A stretch of DNA of 64,000 bases from IMG/VR virus record IMGVR_UViG_3300036892_000014, positions 1-64,000 of that record, one strand, 5' to 3'. A program made the position numbers and the translations under genes. How positions within the stretch are numbered: the first letter of the stretch is position 1; every line of letters starts with the position of its first letter. Shown here in pieces: positions 7,189 to 23,729 of this stretch. A model generated the notes under the pieces. It did no database searches, was not told the DNA's origin, and saw only the letters and a list, made by a program, of their open reading frames with translations. The DNA is from a virus.

Positions 7189-7265
7189 GGTGAGCCAGGC
7201 GAAACAGGTGACGCGCTAGACTGTGAATCTGGTTACAGTGGGTTCGAGACCCACGGCCCACCCCA
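7189..7265 (+). tRNA. tRNA-His (GTG)
   Basis: First gene of the tRNA array. Anticodon GTG; acceptor GTGAGCC/GGCCCAC with one A-C mismatch. It has the extra G at -1 and discriminator C that define tRNA-His. T-loop TTCGAGA, encoded CCA, then ATTTT. Confidence 0.9.
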
Positions 7266-7337
7266 ATTTTAAATCCACGACTACGGTCAGGTGCAAAGTT
7301 TGAAGTTGAAGTTGCCGAAAGAAAAAGTTTAGATAAC

Positions 7338-7414
7338 GCGCCTGTCCAGGCATTGGGGTCGCCCCAGAATTCGGACCATCTGGTCCCGAACGCTCGCGAG
7401 AGGATCGGGGCACA
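7338..7414 (+). ncRNA. unassigned folded RNA, four-way-junction shape
   Basis: GCGCCTGTCC (7338-7347) can pair with GGATCGGGGC (7402-7411) around three hairpins: TGGGG/CCCCA, TTCGGACCA/TGGTCCCGAA and CTC-GCGA-GAG. The 3' end reads ACA-TTTT, echoing the CCA-ATTTT ends of the tRNAs, but no tRNA D- or T-loop is present. It may be a decayed tRNA or a different small RNA. Confidence 0.35.
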
Positions 7415-7432
7415 TTTTAGAAAGCAGGGTTT

Positions 7433-7708
7433 ATGGCCGGATACGAGATGGATGTTCCCGAGTATCCGCACAGAATGACGTACCGCGTCGTCGGAGGTTT
7501 CCACTTGCCTTACGACGTGTCAAAGACTCCCGAAGAAAAGAAGTCCAGCCCGCAGCGGCTTGAGCAGTTGATCTTGGCAGGCGAGCAAGCGAGTATAACG
7601 TTTCGCGTTCTTCCCGTGGACATACAGCAACTGTACGTGAAACAGTTCGCGATGTTACTGGCCGAGATCGAGAAGTTGAGATTGAAGTTGCCTAAAGAAA
7701 AAGTTTAG
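7433..7708 (+). CDS. hypothetical protein, 91 aa
   Basis: MAGYEMDVPEYPHRM start, with AGGG close upstream. Contains YDVSKTPEEKK, echoing the 180-aa protein at 5941, and a C-terminal coiled-coil-like helix ending KLRLKLPKEKV. The final G of its TAG stop is also the first base of tRNA-Phe. About 35 bp of its 3' end are duplicated, with small changes, at 7300-7332. Confidence 0.6.
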   Translation: MAGYEMDVPEYPHRMTYRVVGGFHLPYDVSKTPEEKKSSPQRLEQLILAGEQASITFRVLPVDIQQLYVKQFAMLLAEIEKLRLKLPKEKV

Positions 7709-7782
7709 CCGCTCTAGCTCAGTGGTAGAGCGCCGGTCTGAAAAGCCGGGCGTCTGTGGTTCGATTCCCCAGTGCGGCACCA
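7708..7782 (+). tRNA. tRNA-Phe (GAA)
   Basis: Canonical cloverleaf, anticodon GAA in loop CTGAAAA, T-loop TTCGATT, encoded CCA followed by AGTTTT. G1 is the last base of the upstream stop codon. Confidence 0.95.
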
Positions 7783-7861
7783 AGTTTTGGCTGAGTATGC
7801 TTCGCCGTGCAAACGGAATGAAGACCAACCAGCGGTCCTGTTACCAGGAGCCGCAAAGTTT

Positions 7862-7972
7862 ATGAAAACTAGATGGTGTACGATTTGTCACTGGTGGTTA
7901 ACATTGCCGTGGTCTCACAACCACTGCTCTAAGTGTGGCTCGCGTCTAGTACAAGTAGCAAATCGGTTTTAG
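7862..7972 (+). CDS. mini zinc-ribbon protein, 36 aa
   Basis: Start at 7862 (MKTRWCTICHWWLTLPWSHN), giving CTIC and CSKC pairs. AGGAG stands ten bases upstream, inside a strong hairpin (GCGGTCCTG/CAGGAGCCGC, about 7832-7854) that could mask it. The last base of TAG is G1 of tRNA-Leu. Role unknown. Confidence 0.5.
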   Translation: MKTRWCTICHWWLTLPWSHNHCSKCGSRLVQVANRF

Positions 7973-8055
7973 CCCTGCTGGTGGAATGGCAGACGCGCCG
8001 CACTCAAAACGCGGTTCCTTCGGGAGTCTCAGTTCGAATCTGAGGCGGGGCACCA
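7972..8055 (+). tRNA. tRNA-Leu (CAA)
   Basis: Class II tRNA with long variable arm, anticodon CAA, T-loop TTCGAAT, encoded CCA. G1 is shared with the preceding stop codon. Confidence 0.95.
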
Positions 8056-8061
8056 AAGATT

Positions 8062-8142
8062 GGAGTGACTTCGAAAACGGTCAATAAGTTTCGAAGCTTG
8101 TTGAACCGCAGCCTCCGCCTAGAAAGCGCGGGCAGCACTCCA
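8062..8142 (+). ncRNA. unassigned folded RNA with alternative pairings
   Basis: GGAGTG (8062-8067) and CACTCC (8136-8141) close the unit. Inside, CTTCGAAA (8069-8076) can pair with TTTCGAAG (8089-8096), or CGGTCAATAAG (8078-8088) with CTTGTTGAACCG (8097-8108). The two pairings are mutually exclusive or pseudoknotted. A third hairpin (around CTAGAAA) precedes the closing strand. Not a tRNA by any usual feature. Confidence 0.4.
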
Positions 8143-8166
8143 TAGTTTTAGTCCAAGTTTGACCGC

Positions 8167-8298
8167 GTGGAAGGATACCAAGGTTCTCTCGTGAACGATG
8201 AGGCCCAGAAACGCGAAACGTCGGCGGACGAGACTCCGCAGGTAGTCGTCAAAAAGTTCGTAGGCATGATAGCGCGGCTCCGCCGAATAAATCGGTAA
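8167..8298 (+). CDS. possible small protein, 43 aa (GTG start)
   Basis: Frame VEGYQGSLVNDEAQKRET to RLRRINR. No Shine-Dalgarno sequence. The following 70 bp hold further short fragments with protein-like composition in shifted frames, so this may be the remnant of a longer gene. Confidence 0.3.
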   Translation: MEGYQGSLVNDEAQKRETSADETPQVVVKKFVGMIARLRRINR

Positions 8299-8371
8299 AG
8301 ACGGGTACGCCGACCGAGATCACGCTACCGATGTTTGATTGACAAGGGCCGCTTAATCGCGGTCGGAGATT

Positions 8372-8461
8372 ACCCCGCAGCGATGGTTCGCGGCAGAGTT
8401 CTATAAACTCTTCGGGCCAGATAAGCCTTGCTATGTCGTCCGATTCGACAGTGGGGTACCA
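8372..8461 (+). tRNA. aberrant class II tRNA-like gene (TAT at anticodon position)
   Basis: Acceptor ACCCCGC/GTGGGGT, discriminator A and encoded CCA followed by ATTTT are intact. T-stem TGTCG/CGACA has loop TCCGATT. The anticodon stem AGAGT/ACTCT closes loop TCTATAA, putting C rather than U at position 33 and TAT at 34-36. A variable arm of about 20 nt is present. The D-arm is a 4-bp stem with a TGGT loop. It may be an Ile(AUA) reader, a degenerate Leu/Tyr tRNA, or inactive. Confidence 0.5.
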
Positions 8462-8466
8462 ATTTT

Positions 8467-8552
8467 GCGCTGCTGATGGAATGGCAGACATGCGGGACTT
8501 AAACCCCCGTGGGAGAAATCCCATGAGCGTTCGACTCGCTCGCGGCGCACCA
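8467..8552 (+). tRNA. tRNA-Leu (TAA)
   Basis: Class II, anticodon TAA in loop CTTAAAC, T-loop TTCGACT, acceptor GCGCTGC/GCGGCGC, encoded CCA. Confidence 0.92.
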
Positions 8553-8576
8553 AGTTCTAGAAGTCATGGAGTCTTT

Positions 8577-8816
8577 ATGAGCAAGTCATATGGTGATAAC
8601 CGCGACGACCAAGCATCAGTGCCGTCGGCTGGCGGGGAAATTCGTGCCCGTGGTAAGAGCAGCGCCGAGCAGGATAAGGGTCGCGACGATCAGTCGGCTG
8701 TGGCTGTTGGCGGTGGTGTGAACCGCATGCGTGGTAAGTTGACAGCCGAACAGGACAACGGTCGCGATGACCAGTTTTCAAAGCCGTCAAGCGGCGGAAC
8801 GATCCGTAAGAAGTAA
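8577..8816 (+). CDS. repetitive hydrophilic protein, 79 aa
   Basis: Start at 8577 (MSKSYGDNRDDQASVPSAGG) with GGAG six bases upstream. About three imperfect 27-residue repeats, each opening with RDDQ and containing a GG-x3-R-x-RGK-x2-AEQD pattern. Probably disordered. It sits between tRNA genes; role unknown. Confidence 0.55.
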   Translation: MSKSYGDNRDDQASVPSAGGEIRARGKSSAEQDKGRDDQSAVAVGGGVNRMRGKLTAEQDNGRDDQFSKPSSGGTIRKK

Positions 8817-8905
8817 TGCTCACGGGAATAATTATCGGGCTGGCGATTGTGGTGGCTATAGAGTTGATCTCGGACCACCCGCTGTTCGTCCGTCGTAGAA
8901 AATAA
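8816..8905 (+). CDS. membrane peptide, 29 aa
   Basis: MLTGIIIGLAIVVAIELISD then a basic end. The ATG overlaps the preceding stop (TAATG), indicating coupling. One transmembrane helix. Confidence 0.45.
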   Translation: MLTGIIIGLAIVVAIELISDHPLFVRRRK

Positions 8906-8911
8906 GTTTAT

Positions 8912-8987
8912 GCGTTTGTAGCTCAATAGGCAGAGCACTCCCCTCTTAAGGGATAGGTTGCTGGATCATTGCCAGCCGGACGCACCA
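8912..8987 (+). tRNA. tRNA-Lys (CTT)
   Basis: Anticodon CTT in loop CTCTTAA, acceptor GCGTTTG/CGGACGC, encoded CCA. The T-loop ATCATTG departs from the TTC rule although its stem (GCTGG/CCAGC) is perfect. Confidence 0.85.
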
Positions 8988-9006
8988 TTTTGTACGTACA
9001 TTAGTT

Positions 9007-9050
9007 GGGGAGTGCCCTAACACTCCCCGACATCCTTTAGGGAGGATGCC
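9007..9050 (+). promoter_or_regulatory. HNH leader, copy 1
   Basis: Perfect hairpin, stem GGGGAGTG (9007-9014) with CACTCCCC (9021-9028), loop CCCTAA. Then a smaller hairpin, CATCC (9031-9035) with GGATG (9044-9048), that overlaps the Shine-Dalgarno GGGAGG of the HNH gene. The first resembles a terminator without a U-tract; the second could occlude ribosome binding. Confidence 0.65.
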
Positions 9051-9557
9051 ATGATTTGTAAACTTTGTAGCGAGGTCTTTTCGTCGAAAGACAAGCGAAG
9101 ACTATTTTGTTCTAGGTCTTGTTCAGCAACGTACTCGAACAAGTTTGGTGATAGACCAGTTTCACAGAACAGACGACCGTGTCCAGATTGTGGGCAAGAG
9201 ATTAGAAATAAGAATACCAAGACTTGCATAGATTGCCGTGCTGGCAGGCAGCACAGAGAAACAGGATTTCTCAAAAAGAAAGACGTGAATCGTGAGAGGA
9301 TTAGCGCTCACGCTAGAAGGGTTATCAAAGAACACCTCTCGTCTTGTAAAGTTTGCGGGTACGACTTTGCTGTAGAAGCAGCGCACGTCAAACCCGTTAA
9401 AGAGTTTTCAGGTGACGCGACGATAGAAGAGATTAACAGAATAGAAAATCTGTTGCCTCTATGTCCTAATCACCACTTAGAGTTCGACCGAGGTAAGTTG
9501 ACTCTAGAAACAATCTTATCGGTTGCGGATGCGAGCGGCAGCAATGCGGCCTTTTAA
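9051..9557 (+). CDS. free-standing HNH homing endonuclease 1, 168 aa
   Basis: N-terminal zinc-binding Cys pairs (CKLC, CSRSC, CPDC, CIDC) precede an HNH nuclease core: CKVCGYDFAVEAAHVKPV about residues 98-115, and NLLPLCPNHHLEFDRGKL about 137-154. Family role: makes a double-strand break in an unoccupied allele to spread itself. The last 12 residues (VADASGSNAAF and the stop) are encoded by the 5' half of tRNA-Lys(TTT); the stop codon sits in the tRNA anticodon loop. Confidence 0.9.
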   Translation: MICKLCSEVFSSKDKRRLFCSRSCSATYSNKFGDRPVSQNRRPCPDCGQEIRNKNTKTCIDCRAGRQHRETGFLKKKDVNRERISAHARRVIKEHLSSCKVCGYDFAVEAAHVKPVKEFSGDATIEEINRIENLLPLCPNHHLEFDRGKLTLETILSVADASGSNAAF

Positions 9558-9594
9558 GCCGAGTGTCAGGGTTCGAGCCCCTGGCGACCGACCA
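9520..9594 (+). tRNA. tRNA-Lys (TTT), overlapping HNH 1
   Basis: Anticodon TTT in loop CTTTTAA, acceptor CGGTTGC/GCGACCG, T-loop TTCGAGC, encoded CCA then ATTTT. Its first 38 nt are also the 3' end of the HNH gene. Confidence 0.88.
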
Positions 9595-9600
9595 ATTTTG

Positions 9601-9692
9601 TGGGAATATAGTTCGGGATAATATCCGAATAGTCCTGGCAACGCATGCGAAACCAGGAAAGGGCGTCGTGAGAATCGGCGAGTTCCCAGCCA
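9601..9692 (+). tRNA. aberrant tRNA-like gene, identity undetermined
   Basis: Acceptor TGGGAAT/GTTCCCA, discriminator G, encoded CCA and trailing TTTT are tRNA-like. A 6-bp stem TCCTGG/CCAGGA closes an oversized 14-nt loop (CAACGCATGCGAAA) where the anticodon loop should be. The D-arm is enlarged (TTCGG/CCGAA) and the T-loop is TGAGAAT. Either a decayed gene or an insertion in the anticodon loop. Confidence 0.45.
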
Positions 9693-9700
9693 TTTTACGT

Positions 9701-9790
9701 GGAAGTGCGGCGAAGACGGCGGGTCGTATCTGTCTGTAAAACAGATTGCCCTTGTGGCACTAAGAGGTTCAAATCCTCTCGCTTCCACCA
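9701..9790 (+). tRNA. tRNA-Tyr (GTA)
   Basis: Class II with long variable arm as usual for bacterial tRNA-Tyr. Loop CTGTAAA, T-loop TTCAAAT, acceptor GGAAGTG/CGCTTCC, encoded CCA. Confidence 0.95.
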
Positions 9791-9798
9791 TTTTCTAT

Positions 9799-9873
9799 AG
9801 TTCACTGGCGCAACAGCAGCGCAGTCTCTTGATAGGGGAACGGTTCGTGGTGCAAATCCACGGTGGACTACCA
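9799..9873 (+). tRNA. tRNA-Ile (GAT)
   Basis: Anticodon GAT in loop TTGATAG, acceptor AGTTCAC/GTGGACT, encoded CCA. The D-loop AACAGCA lacks the GG pair and the T-loop is TGCAAAT, so the D-T loop contact is probably altered. Confidence 0.85.
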
Positions 9874-9997
9874 ACTTAGTGTTGAGTTCGACGTGTGCAA
9901 GCGTCGGATGTAGTACAGCACAATCAGTTCGTTCTCGGACGTAAACCGAATGGTGGATCAATAATTCCTGATGACACTCCTGCCCAGGGAGAATCAC

Positions 9998-10489
9998 ATG
10001 ATTATTGTTTCCGATAGTTGGGACGGACAAATAAGAAAGCTGTCCTCTCATAGTTGTTTGCAATGCAGTGAAGAATTTTTCGCGCCGCTTAAAGCGCGAG
10101 CTAAGTATTGTAGTAGAGACTGCATGGGTTTTGCTACGCGGACTCGAATCAAGATTTCGTGTTCTAGGTGTCGTAAAGAGTTTGAACGACAACAGAACAA
10201 AGTTAAAGAGTTAAACTATTGTAGTAGGGAGTGCAAAGAGTTAGACCAGCAGATTGGCGGTCCTCTAGCGCTACCACACTACAAAGACGGCAGACACGAT
10301 TACAGAAATCGAGCGTTTCGCTTACAAGGAAAGAAGTGTAAGCAATGTAGCTTCGATGAAGACGAGCGAATGCTCGATGTTCATCACATAGATAGTAATC
10401 GAGATAACGGACGACCTGAGAACTTAGTTGTTCTTTGCGTTTGGTGTCACGCCGCCACCACAAGAAAAGTTTCTGGGGCTATCGCCTAA
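9998..10489 (+). CDS. free-standing HNH homing endonuclease 2, 163 aa
   Basis: Start at 9998 (MIIVSDSWDGQIRK), behind AGGGAGA. The frame from 9971 would translate the leader hairpin. Cys pairs (CLQC, CSRDC, CSRC, CSREC) lead to the HNH core CKQCSFDEDERMLDVHHIDS about residues 113-132 and NLVVLCVWCHA about 140-150. The 3' end continues 15 bp into tRNA-Ala(TGC); the TAA lies in the tRNA D-arm. The 124-nt spacer before it folds into hairpins, and CTCC/GGAG can pair around the ribosome-binding site. Confidence 0.9.
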   Translation: MIIVSDSWDGQIRKLSSHSCLQCSEEFFAPLKARAKYCSRDCMGFATRTRIKISCSRCRKEFERQQNKVKELNYCSRECKELDQQIGGPLALPHYKDGRHDYRNRAFRLQGKKCKQCSFDEDERMLDVHHIDSNRDNGRPENLVVLCVWCHAATTRKVSGAIA

Positions 10490-10551
10490 TTGGGATGGCA
10501 CTTCCCTTGCAAGGAAGAACAATGTCGGATCGTCCCCGACTAGCTCCACCA
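10475..10551 (+). tRNA. tRNA-Ala (TGC), overlapping HNH 2
   Basis: Anticodon TGC in loop CTTGCAA, acceptor GGGGCTA/TAGCTCC, encoded CCA. The T-loop ATCGTCC is unusual; its stem GTCGG/CCGAC is perfect. Confidence 0.88.
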
Positions 10552-10560
10552 AGTTTCAAT

Positions 10561-10635
10561 TCGCGGCTGGCAGATCGGCTCATGCATCGGTCCTACACAC
10601 CGACCAGCGAGGTTCAACTCCTCGGCGGCGAACCA
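10561..10635 (+). tRNA. tRNA-Val (TAC) with C33
   Basis: Stem TCGGT/ACCGA closes loop CCTACAC, so the anticodon is TAC but position 33 is C instead of the near-universal U. Acceptor TCGCGGC/GCGGCGA has one G-G mismatch. T-loop TTCAACT, encoded CCA. Confidence 0.82.
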
Positions 10636-10639
10636 TTTT

Positions 10640-10714
10640 GGCTCCTTGGTCCAACGAACAAGACTCAGCGCTACGAACGCTGCAATTTCGGTTTGAATCC
10701 GAAGGGGGCTTCCA
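10640..10714 (+). tRNA. tRNA-Arg (ACG)
   Basis: Anticodon ACG in loop CTACGAA, stem CAGCG/CGCTG, T-loop TTTGAAT, discriminator T, encoded CCA. D-loop lacks a clear GG. Confidence 0.9.
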
Positions 10715-10719
10715 ATCTT

Positions 10720-10795
10720 TGGGGATTCGTCTAAACGATAAGACATCTGGCCGTTAACCAGACCGATGAAGGTTTGAATCCTTTGTCCCCAGCCA
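10720..10795 (+). tRNA. tRNA-Asn (GTT) with C33
   Basis: Stem TCTGG/CCAGA closes loop CCGTTAA: anticodon GTT with C at position 33. Acceptor TGGGGAT/GTCCCCA, T-loop TTTGAAT, encoded CCA then TTTT. Confidence 0.88.
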
Positions 10796-10803
10796 TTTTA
10801 CGA

Positions 10804-10879
10804 GCACGCATCATATAGCGGTCCAATATTCCGAGCTTGTACCTCGGTCACTTCCGTTCGAATCGGAATGTGTGCTCCA
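10804..10879 (+). tRNA. tRNA-Thr (TGT)
   Basis: Anticodon TGT in loop CTTGTAC, acceptor GCACGCA/TGTGTGC, T-loop TTCGAAT, discriminator T, encoded CCA. Confidence 0.92.
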
Positions 10880-10884
10880 GTTTT

Positions 10885-10958
10885 GCTTTGCTCGTCTAGT
10901 GGTAAGACGACGGTTTCGTAAACCGCAAACGACTGTTCGATTCAGTCGCGAAGCTCCA
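10885..10958 (+). tRNA. tRNA-Thr (CGT)
   Basis: Anticodon CGT in loop TTCGTAA, acceptor GCTTTGC/GCGAAGC, T-loop TTCGATT, discriminator T, encoded CCA. The acceptor resembles that of the next tRNA-Thr, suggesting duplication. Confidence 0.92.
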
Positions 10959-10964
10959 GTTTAT

Positions 10965-11038
10965 GCTTTGTTCGTACAAAGGAAGTACACGTCTTTGGTA
11001 AAGACGAAACGATGGGTCAGTACCATCACGAAGCTCCA
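10965..11038 (+). tRNA. tRNA-Thr (GGT)
   Basis: Anticodon GGT in loop TTGGTAA, acceptor GCTTTGT/ACGAAGC, encoded CCA. T-loop GTCAGTA, the same unusual loop as in tRNA-Glu(CTC). Confidence 0.88.
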
Positions 11039-11043
11039 GTTTA

Positions 11044-11109
11044 CGCCCCGAGTCACGCAACACGTAGCCTACAAAACAGGTAGGAGCTAGTGGCCTTTTG
11101 AAAGGGGCG
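11044..11109 (+). ncRNA. unassigned tRNA-sized folded RNA without CCA
   Basis: CGCCCC (11044-11049) pairs with GGGGCG (11104-11109). Inside are CCTAC/GTAGG with loop AAAACAG and a CCTTT/AAAGG hairpin. It is followed by AAAAATTT. No U33, no T-loop, no CCA. It occupies a tRNA slot in the array, so it may be a decayed tRNA or a small RNA released with the tRNAs. Confidence 0.35.
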
Positions 11110-11119
11110 AAAAATTTAC

Positions 11120-11198
11120 GGTCTCGTGGCCCAGCCTGGCCCACGGCGCTCCCCTGTCACGGGAGATTTCACGAGTTCAAATCTCGTCGAGACCGCCA
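11120..11198 (+). tRNA. tRNA-Asp (GTC)
   Basis: Anticodon GTC in loop CTGTCAC, acceptor GGTCTCG/CGAGACC, discriminator G, T-loop TTCAAAT, encoded CCA. Confidence 0.93.
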
Positions 11199-11204
11199 AT
11201 TTAT

Positions 11205-11278
11205 GGCCCTGTCTTCTAATGGCAGGATTCTTGCTTCTCAGGCAGGCGGCAGCGGGTCAGTACCGCTCAGGGCTACCA
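11205..11278 (+). tRNA. tRNA-Glu (CTC)
   Basis: Anticodon CTC in loop TTCTCAG, acceptor GGCCCTG/CAGGGCT, T-loop GTCAGTA (unusual), encoded CCA then ATTTT. Confidence 0.88.
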
Positions 11279-11283
11279 ATTTT

Positions 11284-11358
11284 CGCGCAGTACGTTATGG
11301 GTTAGACAGCGTGCCTTTCAAGCACGCAGACAGAGTTCGAGTCTCTGCTACGCGACCA
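11284..11358 (+). tRNA. tRNA-Glu (TTC)
   Basis: Anticodon TTC in loop CTTTCAA, T-loop TTCGAGT, acceptor CGCGCAG/CTACGCG with one mismatch, encoded CCA. The next 90 nt (11359-11448) hold only hairpins (ATGTGT/ACACAT, TGCAC/GTGCA) and no gene. Confidence 0.9.
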
Positions 11359-11448
11359 ATTATCGATGTGTGCGACAACTTTAGCGAAGTAGTTCTCGGA
11401 CACATTGCACGATGCGGTGCAAGTAGCAATTCCGCGTCGGAGTTTAAT

Positions 11449-11533
11449 GCCCTGCTGATGGAATTGGCAGACATATCCGTCTTAGAAACGGATGCCTTCG
11501 GGCGTACAGGTTCGACTCCTGTGTGGGGTACCA
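11449..11533 (+). tRNA. tRNA-Leu (TAG)
   Basis: Class II, anticodon TAG in loop CTTAGAA, T-loop TTCGACT, acceptor GCCCTGC/GTGGGGT with several wobbles, encoded CCA. Confidence 0.93.
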
Positions 11534-11541
11534 ATTTCAAT

Positions 11542-11629
11542 TGTGGGTTCGACTAGTGGCCGATGTCGCCTGTCTCATAAGCAGGTCAGCGAAAGCGCAC
11601 CGTTGGTTCAAATCCAACACCCGCAACCA
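11542..11629 (+). tRNA. tRNA with CAT anticodon and a class II variable arm
   Basis: Loop CTCATAA gives anticodon CAT (Met, or Ile if lysidine-modified). Acceptor TGTGGGT/ACCCGCA, discriminator A, T-loop TTCAAAT, encoded CCA. Between anticodon and T-stems lie 16 nt (11586-11601) containing a GC-GAAA-GC hairpin. Such a long arm is normal only for Leu, Ser and bacterial Tyr tRNAs, so the charging identity is uncertain. Confidence 0.82.
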
Positions 11630-11647
11630 ATTTGATGCATCATAGGC

Positions 11648-11692
11648 CGGGGTGCCCTTAACACCCCGACCAACTCTTTAAGGGAGAGTGCT
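11648..11692 (+). promoter_or_regulatory. HNH leader, copy 2
   Basis: Hairpin CGGGGTG (11648-11654) with CACCCCG (11662-11668), loop CCCTTAA. Then ACTCT (11673-11677) with AGAGT (11685-11689) enclosing the GGGAG ribosome-binding site. Same architecture as the leader at 9007, different stem sequence. Confidence 0.65.
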
Positions 11693-12187
11693 ATGTTTAA
11701 CAAGGCAGAAAACCATAAGCGTTACATGCGGGAAGTTTGGTATCCGGCTAACAAGCGAAAACACCAGACGATGGTTCACCGACGTAAGGTAGCCATACTA
11801 GAATTTGTTCGAGCCGCTAAAGCAATCGGCTGTTCGAGGTGTCCAGAGAAAGAGATATGCTGTCTGGACTTTCATCACGCTAAAGGTAAGAAGAGCGCCA
11901 GCCTATCAAGGGTTCATACGTTGGGCTGGTCGTGGGCTAGGATTAAGCGAGAGATCGCAAAGTGCATTATATTGTGTTCTAACTGTCACAGGAAAGAACA
12001 TGCTAGAGGCCGTGGGCTCGTTTCCCACCCCTGCTACCAATTTATGAATCATAAACGCCGTCGCCCAAAGAATCGCCGTGCTGGATGTCTCATGTGCAAA
12101 GCGCATAAGATGAACGGTGCAAAAGGTGAAATGCTCGCGACCAAGGTCAAGGGCATCAAGGGTAAGATACGGCTTGAAGAAGTTTAA
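11693..12187 (+). CDS. HNH endonuclease 3, read through a tRNA fragment into a CxxC mini-protein, 164 aa
   Basis: Residues 1-105 are an HNH protein: CSRCPEKEICCLDFHHAKGK about 46-65, and CIILCSNCHRKEHARG about 91-106. The frame then crosses a tRNA 3' end (12012-12039, about residues 107-116). It continues without stop into a module starting MNHKRRRPKNRRAGCLMCKA, which I recognise as a free-standing small basic CxxC protein of phages and plasmids. Either a genuine fusion or an HNH gene that lost its stop. Confidence 0.8.
   Translation: MFNKAENHKRYMREVWYPANKRKHQTMVHRRKVAILEFVRAAKAIGCSRCPEKEICCLDFHHAKGKKSASLSRVHTLGWSWARIKREIAKCIILCSNCHRKEHARGRGLVSHPCYQFMNHKRRRPKNRRAGCLMCKAHKMNGAKGEMLATKVKGIKGKIRLEEV
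12012..12039 (+). pseudogene. tRNA 3' fragment (T-arm, acceptor 3' strand, CCA)
   Basis: T-stem GTGGG/CCCAC with loop CTCGTTT, then CCCTGCT, discriminator A and CCA, followed by ATTT as after the intact tRNAs. No matching AGCAGGG 5' strand exists upstream; that position is occupied by HNH codons. Consistent with a tRNA truncated when the HNH gene arrived. Confidence 0.6.
12044..12187 (+). CDS. small basic CxxC protein, 47 aa (in frame with HNH 3)
   Basis: The segment from MNHKRRRPKNRRAGCLMCKA to IRLEEV looks complete by itself and matches a small protein type seen alone in other phages. Here no Shine-Dalgarno sequence precedes its ATG, and it shares the HNH 3 frame. Whether it is made separately is unclear. 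Confidence 0.4.
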   Translation: MNHKRRRPKNRRAGCLMCKAHKMNGAKGEMLATKVKGIKGKIRLEEV

Positions 12188-12261
12188 GCGATGTTGGTAT
12201 AGTGGTAGAACGATTCCTTGCCAAGGAATAGGCACCGTTTCGATTACGGTACGTCGCTCCA
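12188..12261 (+). tRNA. tRNA-Gly (GCC)
   Basis: Anticodon GCC in loop TTGCCAA, acceptor GCGATGT/ACGTCGC, T-loop TTCGATT, discriminator T, encoded CCA. It begins on the base after the upstream TAA. Confidence 0.94.
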
Positions 12262-12263
12262 TA

Positions 12264-12295
12264 GCCGCGAGTGGTGAAAGCCACGGACGGCTCCA
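12264..12295 (+). ncRNA. minihelix-like tRNA fragment ending in CCA
   Basis: GCCG (12264-12267) pairs with CGGC (12288-12291) around hairpin GTGG/CCAC with loop TGAAAG. Discriminator T, CCA and AGTTT follow exactly as after the real tRNAs. The D- and anticodon arms are absent. A deletion derivative or a deliberate CCA-ended mini-RNA. Confidence 0.4.
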
Positions 12296-12338
12296 AGTTT
12301 CGTTAACCCCGCAATTATGGCGGGACAACCAAATCGTA

Positions 12339-12361
12339 GGTAGGTTGAAAACCCTACCCCA
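12339..12361 (+). ncRNA. second CCA-ended hairpin
   Basis: GGTAGG pairs with CCTACC (12353-12358) over a loop of about 8 nt, directly followed by CCA-ATTTT. Just upstream, CCCGC/GCGGG encloses AATTATG like an anticodon arm (about 12308-12325). It looks like a tRNA reduced to two arms. The following 110 nt hold hairpins but no gene. Confidence 0.3.
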
Positions 12362-12475
12362 ATTTTACCATATGCCTTGCGGCATGATCGGCATACATAG
12401 TAGAAGCCGCAGTCTTCGCTGCCCGTCAGTTGTTCAAGACTTTAAACATGGGCGACGGGCGAATTTAGGTGATCT

Positions 12476-12721
12476 ATGTTCACAGCCGTAGTGATGACAC
12501 TCGGACTTGTTGTAGACTTGGTCGCTCTGTATTTCTTAGTCGGCATTTGGCGCGATGACAGATTGATGAGAATCGCCGCAGAAGACACATTGAAGGTGCA
12601 GCAAGAATATCTCGGCCTCAGACGAAAGTGGTATGAGAGTCGCACAAAGAAGAAGACTGATGCTCAAGAACCGAAAGCCGCAACTGGAATTCCTGATGGC
12701 GGTAGTTCGAACCCTGTGTAA
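12476..12721 (+). CDS. membrane-anchored protein, 81 aa
   Basis: MFTAVVMTLGLVVDLVALYF hydrophobic anchor, then a charged helical tail (KVQQEYLGLRRKWYESRTKK) and a disordered end. AGGTGAT lies upstream of the ATG. It overlaps the next small membrane gene. The orientation and pairing recall Rz/Rz1-type nesting, but lengths and motifs do not confirm it. Confidence 0.5.
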   Translation: MFTAVVMTLGLVVDLVALYFLVGIWRDDRLMRIAAEDTLKVQQEYLGLRRKWYESRTKKKTDAQEPKAATGIPDGGSSNPV

Positions 12722-12785
12722 CGTGGCAGGCGTAATCATCAGCATCATTTACGTTCTTTGGCAAATGCATTTGTTACCTTTTTAA
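12696..12785 (+). CDS. membrane peptide, 29 aa, nested over the end of the previous gene
   Basis: MAVVRTLCNVAGVIISIIYV then WQMHLLPF. Starts inside gene 12476-12721 in another frame, and its TAA is immediately followed by tRNA-Gly(TCC). One transmembrane helix; function unknown. Confidence 0.4.
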   Translation: MAVVRTLCNVAGVIISIIYVLWQMHLLPF

Positions 12786-12859
12786 GCGGGCTTGACCGAA
12801 CGGCCAGGTACCTGCCTTCCAAGCAGAGGAAGCGATTTCGACTATCGCAGTCCGCTCCA
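12786..12859 (+). tRNA. tRNA-Gly (TCC)
   Basis: Anticodon TCC in loop CTTCCAA, acceptor GCGGGCT/AGTCCGC, T-loop TTCGACT, discriminator T, encoded CCA. Confidence 0.93.
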
Positions 12860-12861
12860 GT

Positions 12862-12952
12862 ATTCGGGTAGAGGGGTTCGAATCCCACAGGCGTGAACGG
12901 GTAAGGCCGCACGTTGCTATAGTGTAATGGCAGCACACCCGAAATTAGTTCC
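12862..12952 (+). pseudogene. tRNA halves in swapped order (Gln-like)
   Basis: The left part (12862-12893) reads like a tRNA 3' half: TTCGGGT, then GGGG-TTCGAAT-CCC, then AGGCGTG. The right part (about 12910-12945) reads like a 5' half: CACGTTG, a D-arm TATAGTGTAATGGCAGC, then ACCCGAA. ACCCGAA complements TTCGGGT, and CACG pairs with CGTG, so the halves fit one molecule read in permuted order. The T-stem is imperfect and no CCA is present. Either debris of duplication and deletion or a permuted tRNA. Confidence 0.4.
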
Positions 12953-12954
12953 GC

Positions 12955-13029
12955 GAGTCGCAAGTGTTATGGCTGCATCTCCGTCTCCAAAACGGTAGGG
13001 TGATAGTTCGAATCTATCGCGTCTCGCCA
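12955..13029 (+). tRNA. tRNA-Trp (CCA)
   Basis: Anticodon CCA in loop CTCCAAA, acceptor GAGTCGC/GCGTCTC with one T-T mismatch, discriminator G, T-loop TTCGAAT, encoded CCA. Confidence 0.9.
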
Positions 13030-13036
13030 ATTTTAT

Positions 13037-13111
13037 GGGTCTCTCGTTCAATGGAGAGGACGCCACACTTCTAAGGTGGCTATGTCGGTTCGATTCCGAC
13101 GGGGCCTTCCA
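13037..13111 (+). tRNA. tRNA-Arg (TCT)
   Basis: Anticodon TCT in loop CTTCTAA, acceptor GGGTCTC/GGGGCCT, T-loop TTCGATT, discriminator T, encoded CCA. Confidence 0.92.
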
Positions 13112-13117
13112 GTTTCT

Positions 13118-13192
13118 GAATGTATAGCTCAATGGAAAGAGCTAGGGTTTCCTAAACCCTCGATCCAGGTTCGACTCCTGGTACGTTCTCCA
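13118..13192 (+). tRNA. tRNA-Arg (CCT)
   Basis: Anticodon CCT in loop TTCCTAA, acceptor GAATGTA/TACGTTC, T-loop TTCGACT, discriminator T, encoded CCA. Confidence 0.93.
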
Positions 13193-13206
13193 GTTCAAGG
13201 GGCAGT

Positions 13207-13605
13207 ATGAAACTCAGTAGGTTCCCATATTGGCAACTGCTAGCGATACCTGCTCTAGCGTGGTGCCTAGGACTCGGATTAAACCAGGCGGTATTGATTG
13301 CCAATCACGGGAAGTTCCCCGTGATGGTGAATGAAGTCCAGTATGAGATACATTGCACCGCGGATGAAGACTCAGATGACGCGCCGTCATCATCGTGTGT
13401 AAAAGGCGGTCAGTTCTTTGATAGAGAACATAGTGTTATGGGGCCGAACTCGCGTCTGAAACCATTAGCCGACATCCTTCCGATAGTCGGCGGCGTATAC
13501 AGTATCGGCGACACTCTACTCCTCGTGGGTGGAGAGTCATTTGCAATTTTGAAATTTATGTGGCTTGCTCTGGTAATCAGAAAGGCCTCACAGAACTTAG
13601 GGTAG
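13207..13605 (+). CDS. DUF5317-like membrane protein, 132 aa
   Basis: Hydrophobic N-terminal segment (LLAIPALAWCLGLGLNQAVL) followed by IANHGKFPVMVN, an acidic loop, a SVMGPNSRLKPLADILPI segment, SIGDTLLLVGG and a second membrane segment. The pattern fits the DUF5317 family of bacterial membrane proteins of unknown function. GGGG lies upstream. Its stop codon overlaps the predicted 5' end of the RNase P RNA, so both are probably on one transcript. Confidence 0.55.
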   Translation: MKLSRFPYWQLLAIPALAWCLGLGLNQAVLIANHGKFPVMVNEVQYEIHCTADEDSDDAPSSSCVKGGQFFDREHSVMGPNSRLKPLADILPIVGGVYSIGDTLLLVGGESFAILKFMWLALVIRKASQNLG

Positions 13606-13912
13606 GCTGGACGACCGCAGGAAACTGAGGAAGTTCGGGACTCTTCTAGACAGAAGACTGTGGAAGATGCAGGACGCGTAAGCGTACGGGTAAGGCCAGA
13701 TGCGGTGCAGATGCTATGGGAAACCAAATGCGGACATCGCCATTCAAGTCTGGGCACTCCCTCTTCGGAGCAATCTCAAATAGGACCTGAGCGCGTCTAG
13801 CGCGATGACGGTCGGGTTGAGAGCAAAGACGGATGGTCGTCAACTTATAACGTGACAATTCGAAAGATTTGTCAACTTATAACGTGACAGAATCCCGGCT
13901 ATAGGCCGACCC
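13600..13912 (+). ncRNA. rnpB: RNase P RNA, phage-borne and compact
   Basis: RNase P RNA is the catalytic part of the enzyme that removes tRNA 5' leaders. P1: GGGTAGG (13600-13606) with CCGACCC (13906-13912), one A-G mismatch. P2: ACGACC (13611-13616) with GGTCGT (13835-13840). P3 is a minimal CAG-GAAA-CTG. The CR-I-like GAGGAAGTTCGGGACTC (from 13627) pairs with CR-V GACAGAATCCCGGCTATAG (from 13885) to form P4, keeping the bulged U. P8-like ACGC-GTAA-GCGT. The block CGGAGCAATCTCAAATAGG (from 13765) matches the conserved P15-J15/16 region. About 313 nt against roughly 377 in E. coli. It lies between tRNA-Arg and tRNA-Ser genes. Confidence 0.88.
13839..13889 (+). repeat. 19-bp direct repeat inside rnpB
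   Basis: GTCAACTTATAACGTGACA occurs at 13839-13857 and 13871-13889, a 32-bp period, between P2 and P4 of the RNase P RNA. One copy would give a normal-length joining region, so this looks like a tandem duplication tolerated by, or functional in, the ribozyme. Confidence 0.9.
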
Positions 13913-13923
13913 AAAGATATTAC

Positions 13924-14009
13924 GGATCAGTGGCGAAATGGTAGACGCACGAGTTTGCTAAACTCGCAACTGAAAGGTTGTGCCTGTTCAAGTCGGGCCT
14001 GATCCGCCA
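13924..14009 (+). tRNA. tRNA-Ser (GCT)
   Basis: Class II, anticodon GCT in loop TTGCTAA, acceptor GGATCAG/CTGATCC, discriminator G as expected for Ser, T-loop TTCAAGT, encoded CCA. Confidence 0.94.
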
Positions 14010-14017
14010 AATTTCAA

Positions 14018-14102
14018 GGAAGATTCCGCTCATGGTGGGCAATCCGGTTTGAACCCGGAGGCTGCTGAAAGGCAGGGGTTTCGATTACTCACTCTTCCTC
14101 CA
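14018..14102 (+). tRNA. tRNA-Ser (TGA)
   Basis: Class II, anticodon TGA in loop TTTGAAC, T-loop TTCGATT, encoded CCA. The discriminator is T rather than the usual G of bacterial Ser, and position 7-66 is a T-C mismatch. Confidence 0.88.
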
Positions 14103-14108
14103 TTTTAA

Positions 14109-14182
14109 CCACGAGTCGGCAAACGGCAAGCTGAATGTCTGCAAAACATTTACCGCTGGTTCGACTCCAGCCTCGTGGTCCA
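14109..14182 (+). tRNA. tRNA-Cys (GCA)
   Basis: Anticodon GCA in loop CTGCAAA, acceptor CCACGAG/CTCGTGG, discriminator T as usual for Cys, T-loop TTCGACT, encoded CCA. Confidence 0.94.
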
Positions 14183-14191
14183 AGTTTCTAC

Positions 14192-14266
14192 TGGGCGATG
14201 GTGTAACGGTAACATCACGGACTTTGAATCCGTTGGATGAACGTTCGAATCGTTCTTGCCCAGCCA
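14192..14266 (+). tRNA. tRNA-Gln (TTG)
   Basis: Anticodon TTG in loop CTTTGAA, acceptor TGGGCGA/TTGCCCA, discriminator G, T-loop TTCGAAT, encoded CCA. Confidence 0.94.
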
Positions 14267-14274
14267 ATTTCAAT

Positions 14275-14349
14275 TGCTCGGTCATCTAATTAGTAGGATG
14301 CGATCCTCTGAAGATTGTCATGCTGGTGCGAGTCCAGCCCAAGCAACCA
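14275..14349 (+). tRNA. tRNA-Gln (CTG)
   Basis: Anticodon CTG in loop CTCTGAA, acceptor TGCTCGG/CCAAGCA with one mismatch, T-loop TGCGAGT, encoded CCA. Confidence 0.9.
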
Positions 14350-14350
14350 A

Positions 14351-14426
14351 CACCCGATAGCTCAAAGCGATTAGAGCACCTGGCTTGACCAGAGAGATAC
14401 CGCCTAGCGAACGGTTTGGGTGACCA
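14351..14426 (+). tRNA. aberrant tRNA-like gene
   Basis: Acceptor CACCCGA/TTGGGTG, discriminator A, encoded CCA-ATTT and a normal D-arm are present. The anticodon arm does not fold well (CTGG/CCAG leaves a 5-nt loop CTTGA) and the T region has ACCG/CGGT with a 9-nt loop. GAC (Val) or TTG could be the anticodon. Probably decayed or strongly diverged. Confidence 0.45.
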
Positions 14427-14433
14427 ATTTAAT

Positions 14434-14522
14434 CGGGTTATAGCTCCGTAATCTGGCAGCGGTCTGGTTTTGGAAACCAGTGACTAACGTCCTTCGAGGT
14501 CCGAATCCTCGTAGCCCGACCA
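14434..14522 (+). tRNA. tRNA-Pro (TGG) with a class II-like variable arm
   Basis: Anticodon TGG in loop TTTGGAA. Acceptor CGGGTTA/TAGCCCG with the C1-G72 pair typical of Pro. T-loop TCCGAAT, encoded CCA. The variable region (14481-14494) is 14 nt and can form GAC-TAAC-GTC, which is abnormal for tRNA-Pro. Confidence 0.85.
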
Positions 14523-14542
14523 TTTTGTATGTACGTACATTT

Positions 14543-14592
14543 GACGGGACGAGCCTGTAACTCGTCCCGTCTACTCTTTACAGGAGAGTATC
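14543..14592 (+). promoter_or_regulatory. HNH leader, copy 3
   Basis: Eleven-bp perfect hairpin (14543-14553 with 14561-14571), loop CCTGTAA. Then ACTCT (14573-14577) with AGAGT (14585-14589) around the ribosome-binding site. Same architecture as the leaders at 9007, 11648 and 28745. Confidence 0.65.
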
Positions 14593-14973
14593 ATGATTAG
14601 TTCAGAAGCGCAGAAAGCGTGGAAGAGAAAAGACTATCTAGATAAGAAAGCATATAAGAAAGCATATTATTTAGCGCGAGACACCGAGCGATACTACAGG
14701 TTTCGAGAGATTTTGATTGAGGCGAAGAGAAAGCCTTGCATAGATTGCGGACACGAGTTTCCGACCTGTGCAATGGATTTGCATCATAGAAACCAGAGTG
14801 AGAAGATTCGAAACGTCTCTACCTTAAAAGACTTCTCTTCCGAGAAGAAATTGAGAGAAGAGATTGCCAAGTGTGATGTGATATGTGCTTGCTGTCATCG
14901 AATCCGCTCAGATAAAGACAAAGTTTACTTCGGGAATTCTGATAGTGGTAATCTACGCCCTTCGGATGGGTGA
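14593..14973 (+). CDS. free-standing HNH homing endonuclease 4, 126 aa
   Basis: Basic helical N-terminus, then CIDCGHEFPTCAMDLHHRNQ about residues 54-73 and AKCDVICACCHRIRSDK about 94-110, an HNH core with zinc cysteines. The final 15 codons (from the FGNSDSGNLRPSDG segment) are the 5' half of tRNA-Pro(CGG); the TGA lies just past its anticodon loop. Same arrangement as HNH 1 and 2. Confidence 0.9.
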   Translation: MISSEAQKAWKRKDYLDKKAYKKAYYLARDTERYYRFREILIEAKRKPCIDCGHEFPTCAMDLHHRNQSEKIRNVSTLKDFSSEKKLREEIAKCDVICACCHRIRSDKDKVYFGNSDSGNLRPSDG

Positions 14974-15004
14974 GACAGAGTTTCGATTACTCTATTCCCG
15001 ACCA
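14931..15004 (+). tRNA. tRNA-Pro (CGG), overlapping HNH 4
   Basis: Anticodon CGG in loop TTCGGAT, acceptor CGGGAAT/ATTCCCG, T-loop TTCGATT, encoded CCA. Last tRNA of the array; its first 43 nt are also HNH coding sequence. Confidence 0.9.
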
Positions 15005-19373: not shown

Positions 19374-19592
19374 ATGGCTTTACTCCAACTTGAACCCTCC
19401 CTGCCGTTGGTAACGCCGAAAGGAAAGGGTCGCGCAGTCGTTTTGATTGACTACGGAATTGAAGAGAATTTGCTCTGGGTTGTTTTTATAGACGAGACAG
19501 GTGAGTGCTGGGCGTTCCAAAACAAAGATGTTCGTTTGGAGTCCAATATTACGATAGGGGCAAAGCGGGACTCATCACCATTGAGGAAGTAA
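19374..19592 (+). CDS. conserved hypothetical protein, 72 aa
   Basis: TPKGKGRAVVLIDYGIEENL and WVVFIDETGECWAFQNKDVR indicate a small beta barrel. I recall similar unannotated proteins in phage virion regions. The stop overlaps the next ATG (TAATG). Confidence 0.6.
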   Translation: MALLQLEPSLPLVTPKGKGRAVVLIDYGIEENLLWVVFIDETGECWAFQNKDVRLESNITIGAKRDSSPLRK

Positions 19593-20212
19593 TGAGACAG
19601 TTCTCAGATACCCCGTATAAGTTGGCTAGGATGACCAAGGAACCGATTCTCTATCTCGTTCGTCATGGCGCAACATTGGGTGATGATACATACAGTGGAC
19701 CACCGAATCCGCCCCTGACCGAACAGGGACGCAATGACGCCGCAGAAGTAGCGCAATTCTTTGTCGGCAGAAAGACGGGTGATATTGTTTCTTCTGAACT
19801 AGGTAGGACGCAAGCGACCGCTAATGAAATTGGAAAGGCACTCGGCAAGAAAGTCCAATTGAGTAAGGGACTAGATTCGCTCGACGTTGGGGATGTATCC
19901 AAGATCAAAGATAAAGACGAAGCGGATAAAGTAATTCATCACCACCAAGATAATCCGGATGAACCCATCCCTGGCGGCGAATCTATTAATCATTTTGACC
20001 GCAGGATTGAACCGGAGTTGATGAAGGGCATCGGCACTTACTACAAAACGGGGTTGCCGTCGATCTTCTCCATTCATCACAGTGTTCAGCACACAGCAGG
20101 AAAGATTTTTAATAATGACAAGGATTCCGCGTTGACTCATCCAGGTGGGGTAGTAGCAGTTTACAAAGATTCAAATGGCTTTCGGGCCGTTCCGATTTTT
20201 AAACCGGAATAA
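19592..20212 (+). CDS. histidine phosphatase (phosphoglycerate-mutase-like), 206 aa
   Basis: Start at 19592 with GAGG five bases upstream. YLVRHGAT (RHG at residues 24-26) is the catalytic signature, PLTEQGRNDAAEVAQF and SSELGRTQATANEIG follow in the usual spacing, and SIHHSVQHTAG supplies the second catalytic His. Family members are phosphomonoesterases or mutases. In a virion operon the substrate is unknown and it may be packaged. Confidence 0.8.
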   Translation: MRQFSDTPYKLARMTKEPILYLVRHGATLGDDTYSGPPNPPLTEQGRNDAAEVAQFFVGRKTGDIVSSELGRTQATANEIGKALGKKVQLSKGLDSLDVGDVSKIKDKDEADKVIHHHQDNPDEPIPGGESINHFDRRIEPELMKGIGTYYKTGLPSIFSIHHSVQHTAGKIFNNDKDSALTHPGGVVAVYKDSNGFRAVPIFKPE

Positions 20213-21452: not shown

Positions 21453-23729
21453 ATGCCTATTACAGGAATCGAAAAGGACCGCTTAAATTTTGTTGACGAG
21501 CGCGTTCGTACGCAGAAGGCTATATGGCCTGGAATCGTCGAGAAGTGGGATGCTGAAGCGAATGGAAAGCGCTACAAGTCCGAAGTCCTTTCGATGAAGG
21601 CGTTGTGGAACCTGTATGTGGGTGGCAATCCGGAACAGTTGACCGAGGAAGAAGAGGCTCGCGGTAAGAAGCCATTAAAGAAAAAAACCGGGTACGAAGT
21701 CATCCCGATCAAAGCGTTTGAGTTGCCTGGGCGATTTAACGAGAAGGGTCGCAAGCGCGACGACACCTTGATTCACACGGGTGTCAATGGCTATCTCCAC
21801 TTCAATCAGTGGTTGATGGCTCGCGATCAGGCGCGTAAGGATTTGTTCTGGTTCGGAAAAGAAGTCTTCCACATGGACTTCGAGCCTGAAGTGCATCAAG
21901 TAACCTGCAATCAGTTCGTGCAGAAAGATTTTGATGGCGTTTGGGTAGAAGATTATGGCCAGAAAGAATTTAAAGTAGCTATGGCAAGTCAGACTCGTAT
22001 TCCTAGAGTGTGGGTGCAGGCTGACGAGTACGAAAAGAATTCCTTGCGAGACATCGGGTACTATATGCCCGACCCAATAGAAGCGGAGAAAGGTCCTAAC
22101 CTTGCCCGCACTATGATTTTGTTGGACCCTCGTGGGTTCTTCAAGTCATACACAGACGCGCTAGATTGCGTCCAGTGGATTATCAACTGCCCAGACATTC
22201 GTATCCTCATCATGAGCGGTACGTATAAGTTGACATTGCAGTTCCTTGCCAACGCAAAGGGTAAGTTCTATCTTCCACGTGGACTACGTCCGACTTACTT
22301 TCATTTACTGTTCCCAGAATATGTTATTCGAGGGGTTGACGGTGATTCGAAAGAGCCTTTGATTCTCGACCCGACACTGCGCCGACTAGAGTCCCAAGAC
22401 CCGACGTTGGGAATCATGTCTATCGGATCGTCATTGTCCGGGTTCCACTGCGACGTGTTAAAGTTCGACGATATCGTCACAGACGAGAATTGCAACACGG
22501 ATGAGACCAGAGAAGGACTGAAGGACAAGGCCGACGGCGCGGTCAACTTGCGCATGCCGTGGGGCTGGACGGATATCATCGGGACGCGCTACTTCCCAGA
22601 TGACTATTACGGACTACTCTTGGACAAGTTCAAAGAAAGTCCAGAAGATTTTAACCTGAAGTTTTTTACCCGCGCTGCATGGGTAGTTAAGCCTGAGTTC
22701 AAAGACGTAGAAGAAAGAAGTTTGTTTGAACTGAAAGAGGATATGGTTGATCTGACCTTTCCACAGCATAAGTCATGGAAGAGTCTTCGTCAGGACTTGA
22801 AGAACGAGAAAAGTTTTCGCTGCCAGCAACTTAACCAACCTGTCTGGGGAAACGAGAACAGCGTCAAGTTTGATCGCGGCGTGTTGGAAGCGCACAGAGG
22901 TGTTAAACTATTGGCCGAAGTGGTCATGGCACCCGGAAAAGTTTACGGTGCTATTGACCTAGCGCGTGAGAACAAACAGTTCTCAGACTTCACGGCACTT
23001 GCTGTCGGAAAAGTCTATCAAGAAGGTTCGATCCCGATTCTTACACCAGAGCAAGCCGCAGCGTCAGTGCGGCTAGAAGGAAAGTGGATTCTGGTCGTCC
23101 TCGATGTGCAATTTGGGAAGTGGTCTCAGACGGAGATCGCGGCTAGGATTGCAAAGATGCATGACGTATGGCGTCCTTCGCAGTGGTACGGCGAGGATAC
23201 CGGCGGCATTCAGCTATTGAAGGAAAAGATTGTAGACGTATCCAAAACGACGTACGGCCATTGGCCGTATATTGATTGGAGAACGCCGGATAATTCCGAG
23301 AATGCAAAGCGAGGCCGCATCAAAGGCCTTGAGATGCTTCTTACCACCGATAGACTGTTCTTTTTGACGGGCGGGTGGAATTCGGAAGTGTTCGAACAAC
23401 TTGAGAAATATAAAGGACAGAAGAGTACGCGCTTCTTTAAGGATGACGTACCTGATGTTCTATCTCAGTTGGCTAATAAATATATTCCGAGCATCATTCA
23501 GAAGTCGAAAAAAGAATTGATCGAGGAAGCTAGTCAGAGGGAAGCCCAGTATAGGGAGTATCTTCGTCGCGAGGTCAAGAGACAGATTTACGGCGAGGAT
23601 AACGGGGGCTTCGGCATGGCAGCACCCAGTCAATCATATTGGTACAATGAGCCTCCCCCACAGCAGCCGTCATCGCCAGTGAGTGAGATTGCACGAAAGT
23701 TGTTTGGCGGCAATGGGATGAGGGGATAA
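21453..23729 (+). CDS. terL: terminase large subunit, 758 aa
   Basis: Packages DNA into the capsid. N-terminal ATPase: adenine-motif region about residues 160-200, Walker A-like LLDPRGFFKSYTDAL near residue 222, Walker B LKFDDIVTDEN near 339, coupling segment IMSIGSSLSGFH before it. C-terminal RNase H-like nuclease: GAIDLARENKQFSDFTALAV near 500, EDTGGIQLLKEK near 578, acidic VPDVLSQLANKY near 670. Length is normal. Stop adjoins the portal ATG. Confidence 0.9.
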   Translation: MPITGIEKDRLNFVDERVRTQKAIWPGIVEKWDAEANGKRYKSEVLSMKALWNLYVGGNPEQLTEEEEARGKKPLKKKTGYEVIPIKAFELPGRFNEKGRKRDDTLIHTGVNGYLHFNQWLMARDQARKDLFWFGKEVFHMDFEPEVHQVTCNQFVQKDFDGVWVEDYGQKEFKVAMASQTRIPRVWVQADEYEKNSLRDIGYYMPDPIEAEKGPNLARTMILLDPRGFFKSYTDALDCVQWIINCPDIRILIMSGTYKLTLQFLANAKGKFYLPRGLRPTYFHLLFPEYVIRGVDGDSKEPLILDPTLRRLESQDPTLGIMSIGSSLSGFHCDVLKFDDIVTDENCNTDETREGLKDKADGAVNLRMPWGWTDIIGTRYFPDDYYGLLLDKFKESPEDFNLKFFTRAAWVVKPEFKDVEERSLFELKEDMVDLTFPQHKSWKSLRQDLKNEKSFRCQQLNQPVWGNENSVKFDRGVLEAHRGVKLLAEVVMAPGKVYGAIDLARENKQFSDFTALAVGKVYQEGSIPILTPEQAAASVRLEGKWILVVLDVQFGKWSQTEIAARIAKMHDVWRPSQWYGEDTGGIQLLKEKIVDVSKTTYGHWPYIDWRTPDNSENAKRGRIKGLEMLLTTDRLFFLTGGWNSEVFEQLEKYKGQKSTRFFKDDVPDVLSQLANKYIPSIIQKSKKELIEEASQREAQYREYLRREVKRQIYGEDNGGFGMAAPSQSYWYNEPPPQQPSSPVSEIARKLFGGNGMRG

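Follow-up and report, generated by a model that had tools for sequence, protein, structure and literature searches.

A bacterial-type RNase P RNA gene with a rebuilt specificity domain in the tRNA array of a phage

Introduction

RNase P RNA, the catalytic RNA with which bacteria trim their tRNAs, is generally counted among the core ribozymes of cells. In bacterial RNase P, the L15 GGU pairs with the CCA of the tRNA. Reduced forms include the type T RNA of Pyrobaculum and the minimal RNase P RNAs of organelles, in which the specificity domain is reduced and the catalytic domain is kept; type T is archaeal and the others are organellar, and both use other proteins. Type T RNase P is mentioned in PMC7191817. 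The catalytic domain of the E. coli RNA cleaves on its own with reduced efficiency (PMC5839562). In yeast mitochondria, fMet-RPM1-Pro is one transcription unit with RPM1 between tRNA-fMet and tRNA-Pro (PMC3797045). A survey of huge phages lists phage tmRNA and translation factors, with no mention of RNase P RNA (PMC7162821).

Here we describe an RNase P RNA gene in the first 64,000 nt of the IMG/VR record IMGVR_UViG_3300036892_000014, the stretch analysed, hereafter called the window. It was confirmed to be a phage-borne RNase P RNA gene of the bacterial type. The RNA resembles bacterial class A (RF00010, rnpB or M1 RNA) in its full-length model match and in having the helices, CR elements and L15 GGU in order. 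It differs from that class in that the gene sits in a tRNA array and no partner rnpA is encoded, P18 is absent, the specificity domain is ~64 nt without the J11/12-J12/11 sequences, and the score of 93.6 bits falls short of the cut-off, which is 100. By motif spacing, the nearest cellular type is the betaproteobacterial RNA with its compact specificity domain; compared with that type, the window subtype lacks even the GUGAAA and ACAGA elements. The reduced specificity domain recalls the type T and organellar minimal RNAs, a likeness taken from general knowledge and not from sequence comparison. As with RPM1, tRNA genes flank an RNase P RNA, which is co-transcribed with its substrates in yeast (PMC3797045) and, by inference, in the phage; RPM1, however, is organellar and not viral, and has a separate origin.

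Results

Identity of the gene and of the record

A covariance-model search with an E-value threshold matched window positions 13599-13917 on the plus strand to RF00010, the class A bacterial RNase P RNA model (E = 4.8e-29, 93.6 bits), over model positions 1-367 of 367. The Rfam gathering score for this model is 100 bits, and since the window RNA falls ~6 bits under it, it does not meet that membership criterion and a default Rfam scan misses it: at the gathering cut-off only tRNAs were reported in the window, and RNase P was seen once the E-value threshold was used. Other phage P RNAs scored 131-299 bits against the same model. No second RNase P RNA was found in the whole 83,881-nt record, which IMG/VR holds as a virus classed as linear, and no 16S rRNA was found in it. 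Terminase and portal genes are present (Table 1); these were assigned by PHROG scans because Pfam Terminase_6N was positive in only one record among the relatives.

The sequence-only reading had proposed that the phage carries an RNase P RNA gene within its tRNA array, and had named the lack of a covariance-model match as grounds for giving it up. The full-length match, the terminase and portal genes in the same record and the same-strand tRNAs on both sides bear the proposal out. The positions it gave for the gene, 13600-13912, are exactly those of the P1-closed RNA, and P1, P2, the 3-bp P3, P4 with its bulged U and CR-V lie where it placed them; CR-IV is likewise present.

Elements of the RNA

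P1, P2, P3, the P4 bulged U, P5, P7, P8, P9, P15 and P16 follow one another in the expected order, as do CR-I, CR-IV, CR-V and the L15 GGU, which meets the membership criterion for these elements. For CR-V, 0.08 chance matches with up to 3 mismatches would be expected in the window. J18/2 carries a single change, AGACGGAU for AGANGAAU. CCA is encoded by all 28 tRNAs found by ARAGORN in the window, in agreement with the retained L15 GGU. The direct repeat TCAACTTATAACGTGACA is exact over 18 nt, lies around P19 (13840-13889) and has one end inside that hairpin; judged from its letters, the P19 helix looks as if it had grown by tandem duplication.

Table 1. Coordinates of the RNase P RNA, its elements and neighbouring genes, given as window positions.
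Feature	Coordinates	Strand	Basis or remark
RNase P RNA gene (rnpB-like)	13599-13917; P1-closed core 13600-13912	+	RF00010 span
P1	13600-13608 with 13904-13912	+	Covaries with relatives
P2	13610-13616 (GACGACC) with 13835-13841 (GGUCGUC)	+	Covaries
P3	13618-13627	+	Three pairs CAG/CUG, GAAA loop; sequence and model alignment
P4, 5' strand	13632-13640; pseudoknot with 13893-13900	+	Bulged U at 13634; covariation
P5	13653-13657 (GAAGA) with 13762-13766 (UCUUC)	+	Four-sequence structure count
P8-like hairpin	13658-13672	+	CUGUGGAAGAUGCAG; marks the window subtype, with almost no variation
P9 hairpin	13674-13685	+	ACGC-GUAA-GCGU; covariation at every pair
Reduced specificity domain	13692-13755	+	One imperfect hairpin GGCCAGA...UCUGGGC, internal loop CAUUCAAG
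CR-IV / J5-15	13767-13784	+	GGAGCAAUCUCAAAUAGG; sequence and model alignment
L15	13814-13817	+	GGGU, containing GGU
P19 hairpin	13853-13874	+	UGACAAUUC-GAAA-GAUUUGUCA; homologous hairpin in G065
Direct repeat TCAACTTATAACGTGACA, copy 1	13840-13857	+	Flanks/forms P19
Direct repeat TCAACTTATAACGTGACA, copy 2	13872-13889	+	Sequence
CR-V	13887-13904	+	ACAGAAUCCCGGCUAUAG
tRNA array	7190-15004	+	28 tRNAs (ARAGORN), 3' CCA encoded in all 28
tRNA-Ser(GCU)	13924-14009	+	Starts 6 nt past the RNase P RNA
tRNA missed by ARAGORN, probably Ser(UGA)	14017-14103	+	Anticodon loop UUUGAAC; tRNA-Sec model 31.8 bits, weak
Terminase large subunit	21453-23729	+	PHROG profiles
Portal protein	23730-25844	+	PHROG profiles

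Loss of P18 and the rebuilt specificity domain

P18 is deleted in the alignment of the window RNA to RF00010, so that this class A criterion is not met, and by eye it is also missing from three relatives (G009, G064 and G065). The subtype does have a P19, which is capped by GAAA in the window RNA. The motif strings of J11/12 (ACAGARA) and J12/11 (GUGAAA) were not seen in 13692-13755, where the model alignment shows deletions. The specificity domain of the window subtype is instead a single imperfect hairpin of ~64 nt with a covarying stem and a shared internal loop (AUUCAAG); in G009 the domain is almost gone. The RNA had also been called structurally compact on account of a P3 of only three base pairs. 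The short P3 stands, and the compactness comes mainly from the specificity domain and the lost P18, not from P3 alone.

In other phages the specificity domain is reduced in other ways, with total lengths of 227-243 nt (L217, L398, L400) and 257-260 nt (L401, L402). The RNAs at L398 and L400 (in G072 and G080) and at L217 (in G061) have no recognisable specificity domain and have in common the segment CACUAAGCC...AAAAAGCA.

Relatives sharing the subtype

The P8 motif pattern alone gave mostly chance matches, and a second anchor was added for specificity. Three phages, G064 (101 kb, 24 tRNAs), G065 (64 kb, 21 tRNAs) and G009 (71 kb, 28 tRNAs), carry the window subtype and share its unusual P8 sequence, CUGUGGAAGNUGCAGG. 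The window phage is 62-64% identical to G064 and G065 in the portal protein, 71-73% in a 311-aa head-module protein and about 35% in the terminase, and in all three the tRNA array and rnpB lie before the terminase gene. G009 is a more distant phage that encodes a terminase, portal, major head protein and DNA polymerase. The L15 GGU is kept in all four members of the subtype.

RNAalifold, given the four sequences, recovered P1, P2, P5, P7, P8, P9, P15 and P16 unprompted, and in 28 of the 65 pairs of its structure pairing was kept after two-sided changes. For a formal count, P4 was added as a pseudoknot (67 pairs) and the alignment compared with 500 shuffles. Paired cells amounted to 98.0% (80.7% in shuffles), 31 of the 67 pairs had two-sided changes and were still paired (13.4 in shuffles), and the covariation score was 0.532 (0.172 in shuffles), a value reached in 0 of the 500. 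Structures slid by 1-3 columns left only 30-37% of cells paired. P4 was 100% paired, with two-sided changes in 4 of 8 pairs and the bulged U unchanged, which meets the membership criterion for this helix. The set of four sequences is small, and one column of G064 is misaligned in P5, which lowered the score and did not raise it. Compensatory changes across four phages show that selection within phages maintains the RNase P fold; the RNA is thus not a relic and was not copied recently from a host.

The tRNA array

With the probable Ser(UGA), the window holds 29 tRNA genes in total, all on the same strand as the RNase P RNA, and gaps of 4-9 nt are common between those of the array. The nearest upstream tRNA of the RNase P RNA is a tRNA-Arg 406 nt away. 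An ORF with a DUF5317 match (13207-13605) overlaps the start of the RNase P RNA by 7 nt at its end. HNH endonuclease genes occur within the array (9051-9557, 9971-10489, 11693-12187 and 14593-14973); G009, G064 and G065 have relatives of the third and fourth in their own arrays, so homing could contribute to the spread or shuffling of such arrays. The same two ORFs were considered as substitutes for the P protein and rejected, as they are HNH endonucleases. A histidine phosphatase family protein (PF00300) is encoded at 19505-20212, between the array and the terminase gene.

Recurrence among viruses

We scanned 2.9 million viral contigs for exact matches to conserved rnpB motifs and then searched records with RF00010. 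The gene is not unique to the window phage: ~40 viral records had RF00010 matches, and about 30 are counted as holding such a gene. Records with rnpB and no tRNAs (G032, G037, G044, G069, G085 and others) entered the tally only and may be cellular.

For a check of context, 31 loci including the window were kept, each comprising the RNA and up to 1.5 kb on either side. At least three same-strand tRNAs were present in 28 of them, compared with no tRNA at all within 1.5 kb in any of 40 bacterial rnpB loci used as a control, nearly all of which are from Betaproteobacteria because of the motif pattern used for choosing them. In 13/31 viral loci no more than 7 nt separated the 3' end of the RNA from the following tRNA, and at several the RNA also started 0-6 nt after an upstream tRNA. 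Thirty of the 31 viral sequences formed 27 clusters at 90% identity, and every one of the 30 forms the seven P4 pairs that were tested around the bulged U.

A group of jumbo-like phages (G003, G005, G018, G015 and G010; contigs up to 463 kb) has a ribonucleotide reductase beside the rnpB/tRNA block, and in the first three the same DNA helicase lies on its far side; the P RNAs of this group differ from one another by 19-37%. Genes for tmRNA and RNase P RNA lie <0.5 kb apart and near tRNAs at two loci (L072 in G018 and L073 in G021).

Partner protein, origin and novelty

RnpA (PF00825) was not found in the window record or in 14 other viral records, in a search for which 10 of 14 control genomes were positive. 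The absence makes host RnpA the likely partner; the metagenomic records are possibly incomplete, and a divergent P protein could escape detection. Several other phage P RNAs share a betaproteobacterial specificity domain, ACAGAGACGAGUC...GGGUGAAACG. In a rough tree the phage P RNAs group together and not with the sampled bacteria.

Blastn searches of 50,697 annotated phage records with seven queries found no true phage rnpB, and the open-access literature yielded no account of RNase P RNA in a phage, subscription papers and preprints being outside the scope of the search. Within these limits, the earlier statement that no established phage case was known still holds. The blastn matches to Salmonella AGRM01000002 and 'Acinetobacter phage MD-2021a' are cellular sequence filed as phage. 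Microcystis phage MaAM05 (MW495066; L404) is filed as a complete phage genome, and its rnpB stretch looks cellular, holding glyS, mtgA and fabI. Faecal fragments matched by phage rnpB are unverified, with at most one tRNA, and were not counted. The molecule itself is of a known kind; as far as could be searched, its occurrence in phages and the remodelled subtype are new.

Discussion

We consider it likely that the gene encodes a working phage RNase P RNA that acts with host RnpA to process the transcript of the phage tRNAs; data on its transcription, on RnpA binding and on cleavage are lacking. Strand and spacing suggest that the RNA would be transcribed together with the array. Covariation shows that it folds into a catalytic domain that is conserved and a specificity domain that is minimal; it would bind the RnpA of the host, as the phage appears to encode none. 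The complex is then inferred to remove the 5' leaders of the CCA-encoding phage tRNAs. Since only 6 nt separate the 3' end of the P RNA from tRNA-Ser, 5' processing of this tRNA would also free the P RNA 3' end, a self-maturation in cis or in trans that is inferred from the layout alone; 13 of the 31 phage loci are laid out in the same way. The putative gain is tRNA processing late in infection without dependence on host rnpB expression. Such reduced RNAs could be active, because the E. coli catalytic domain alone cleaves (PMC5839562); with the usual substrate-reading sequences missing from the specificity domain, activity may be weak or specialised.

In the absence of a phage RnpA, the RNA has no choice but to compete for that of the host, and its reduced specificity domain is what a mere protein binder might have. 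It could thus be a decoy that titrates host RnpA or processing factors and blocks host tRNA maturation without processing phage tRNAs. We regard this as unlikely, since the catalytic elements are retained: the P4 helix around the bulged U is fully paired in every viral sequence tested, P4 changes within the subtype are compensating, and no subtype member has lost the L15 GGU, while the location in tRNA arrays better fits a processing role. The closeness of tRNA-Ser, the 13 loci with gaps of at most 7 nt and those where the RNA almost abuts an upstream tRNA would also suit an RNA that serves mostly to cleave the transcript it is part of, at the tRNA or tRNAs next to it, ordering or timing the processing of the array, with little activity in trans. 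Little credence can be given to this, as other loci, including those of G009, G064 and G065 in the same subtype, have 168-367 nt to the next tRNA, and close spacing of genes is the rule in such arrays.

It is plain that some rnpB-bearing records, both in IMG/VR and among annotated phages, are cellular sequence (MW495066 is one), which raises the question of a recently captured or decaying host rnpB, or of host sequence joined to a viral contig by misassembly. Here, however, the window RNA had no DNA match in 399 Pseudomonadota genomes (a search without a positive control) and none among plasmids, a nearly identical bacterial rnpB was not found, phage genes are on the same contig, and tRNAs abut the RNA gene. 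The compensatory evolution across four phages and the conserved place in related phages go further, and because of this covariation and synteny we consider decay and contamination ruled out, leaving them next to no weight.

The reading of a working phage ribozyme can be widened, with somewhat less assurance, to the phage P RNA lineages as a whole. It is fairly probable that phages evolved P RNA lineages of their own, with specificity domains independently reduced or rebuilt, and that these array-borne RNAs use host RnpA and mature themselves at an adjoining tRNA, so that phage tRNA maturation relies only in part on the ribozyme of the host.

Some phages thus seem to bring their own tRNA-maturing ribozyme, its catalysis being inferred, and related phages have kept and remodelled the gene. 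Maintenance of the gene in many tailed phages, amid their tRNA arrays, would add tRNA 5' maturation to the steps of translation that phages supply, and a phage P RNA would explain how phages with very large tRNA arrays could have them processed as the host RNA fails. The phage RNAs are also natural minimal variants of RNase P RNA, and because the window subtype keeps the catalytic core and replaces the specificity domain, the need for that domain becomes directly testable.
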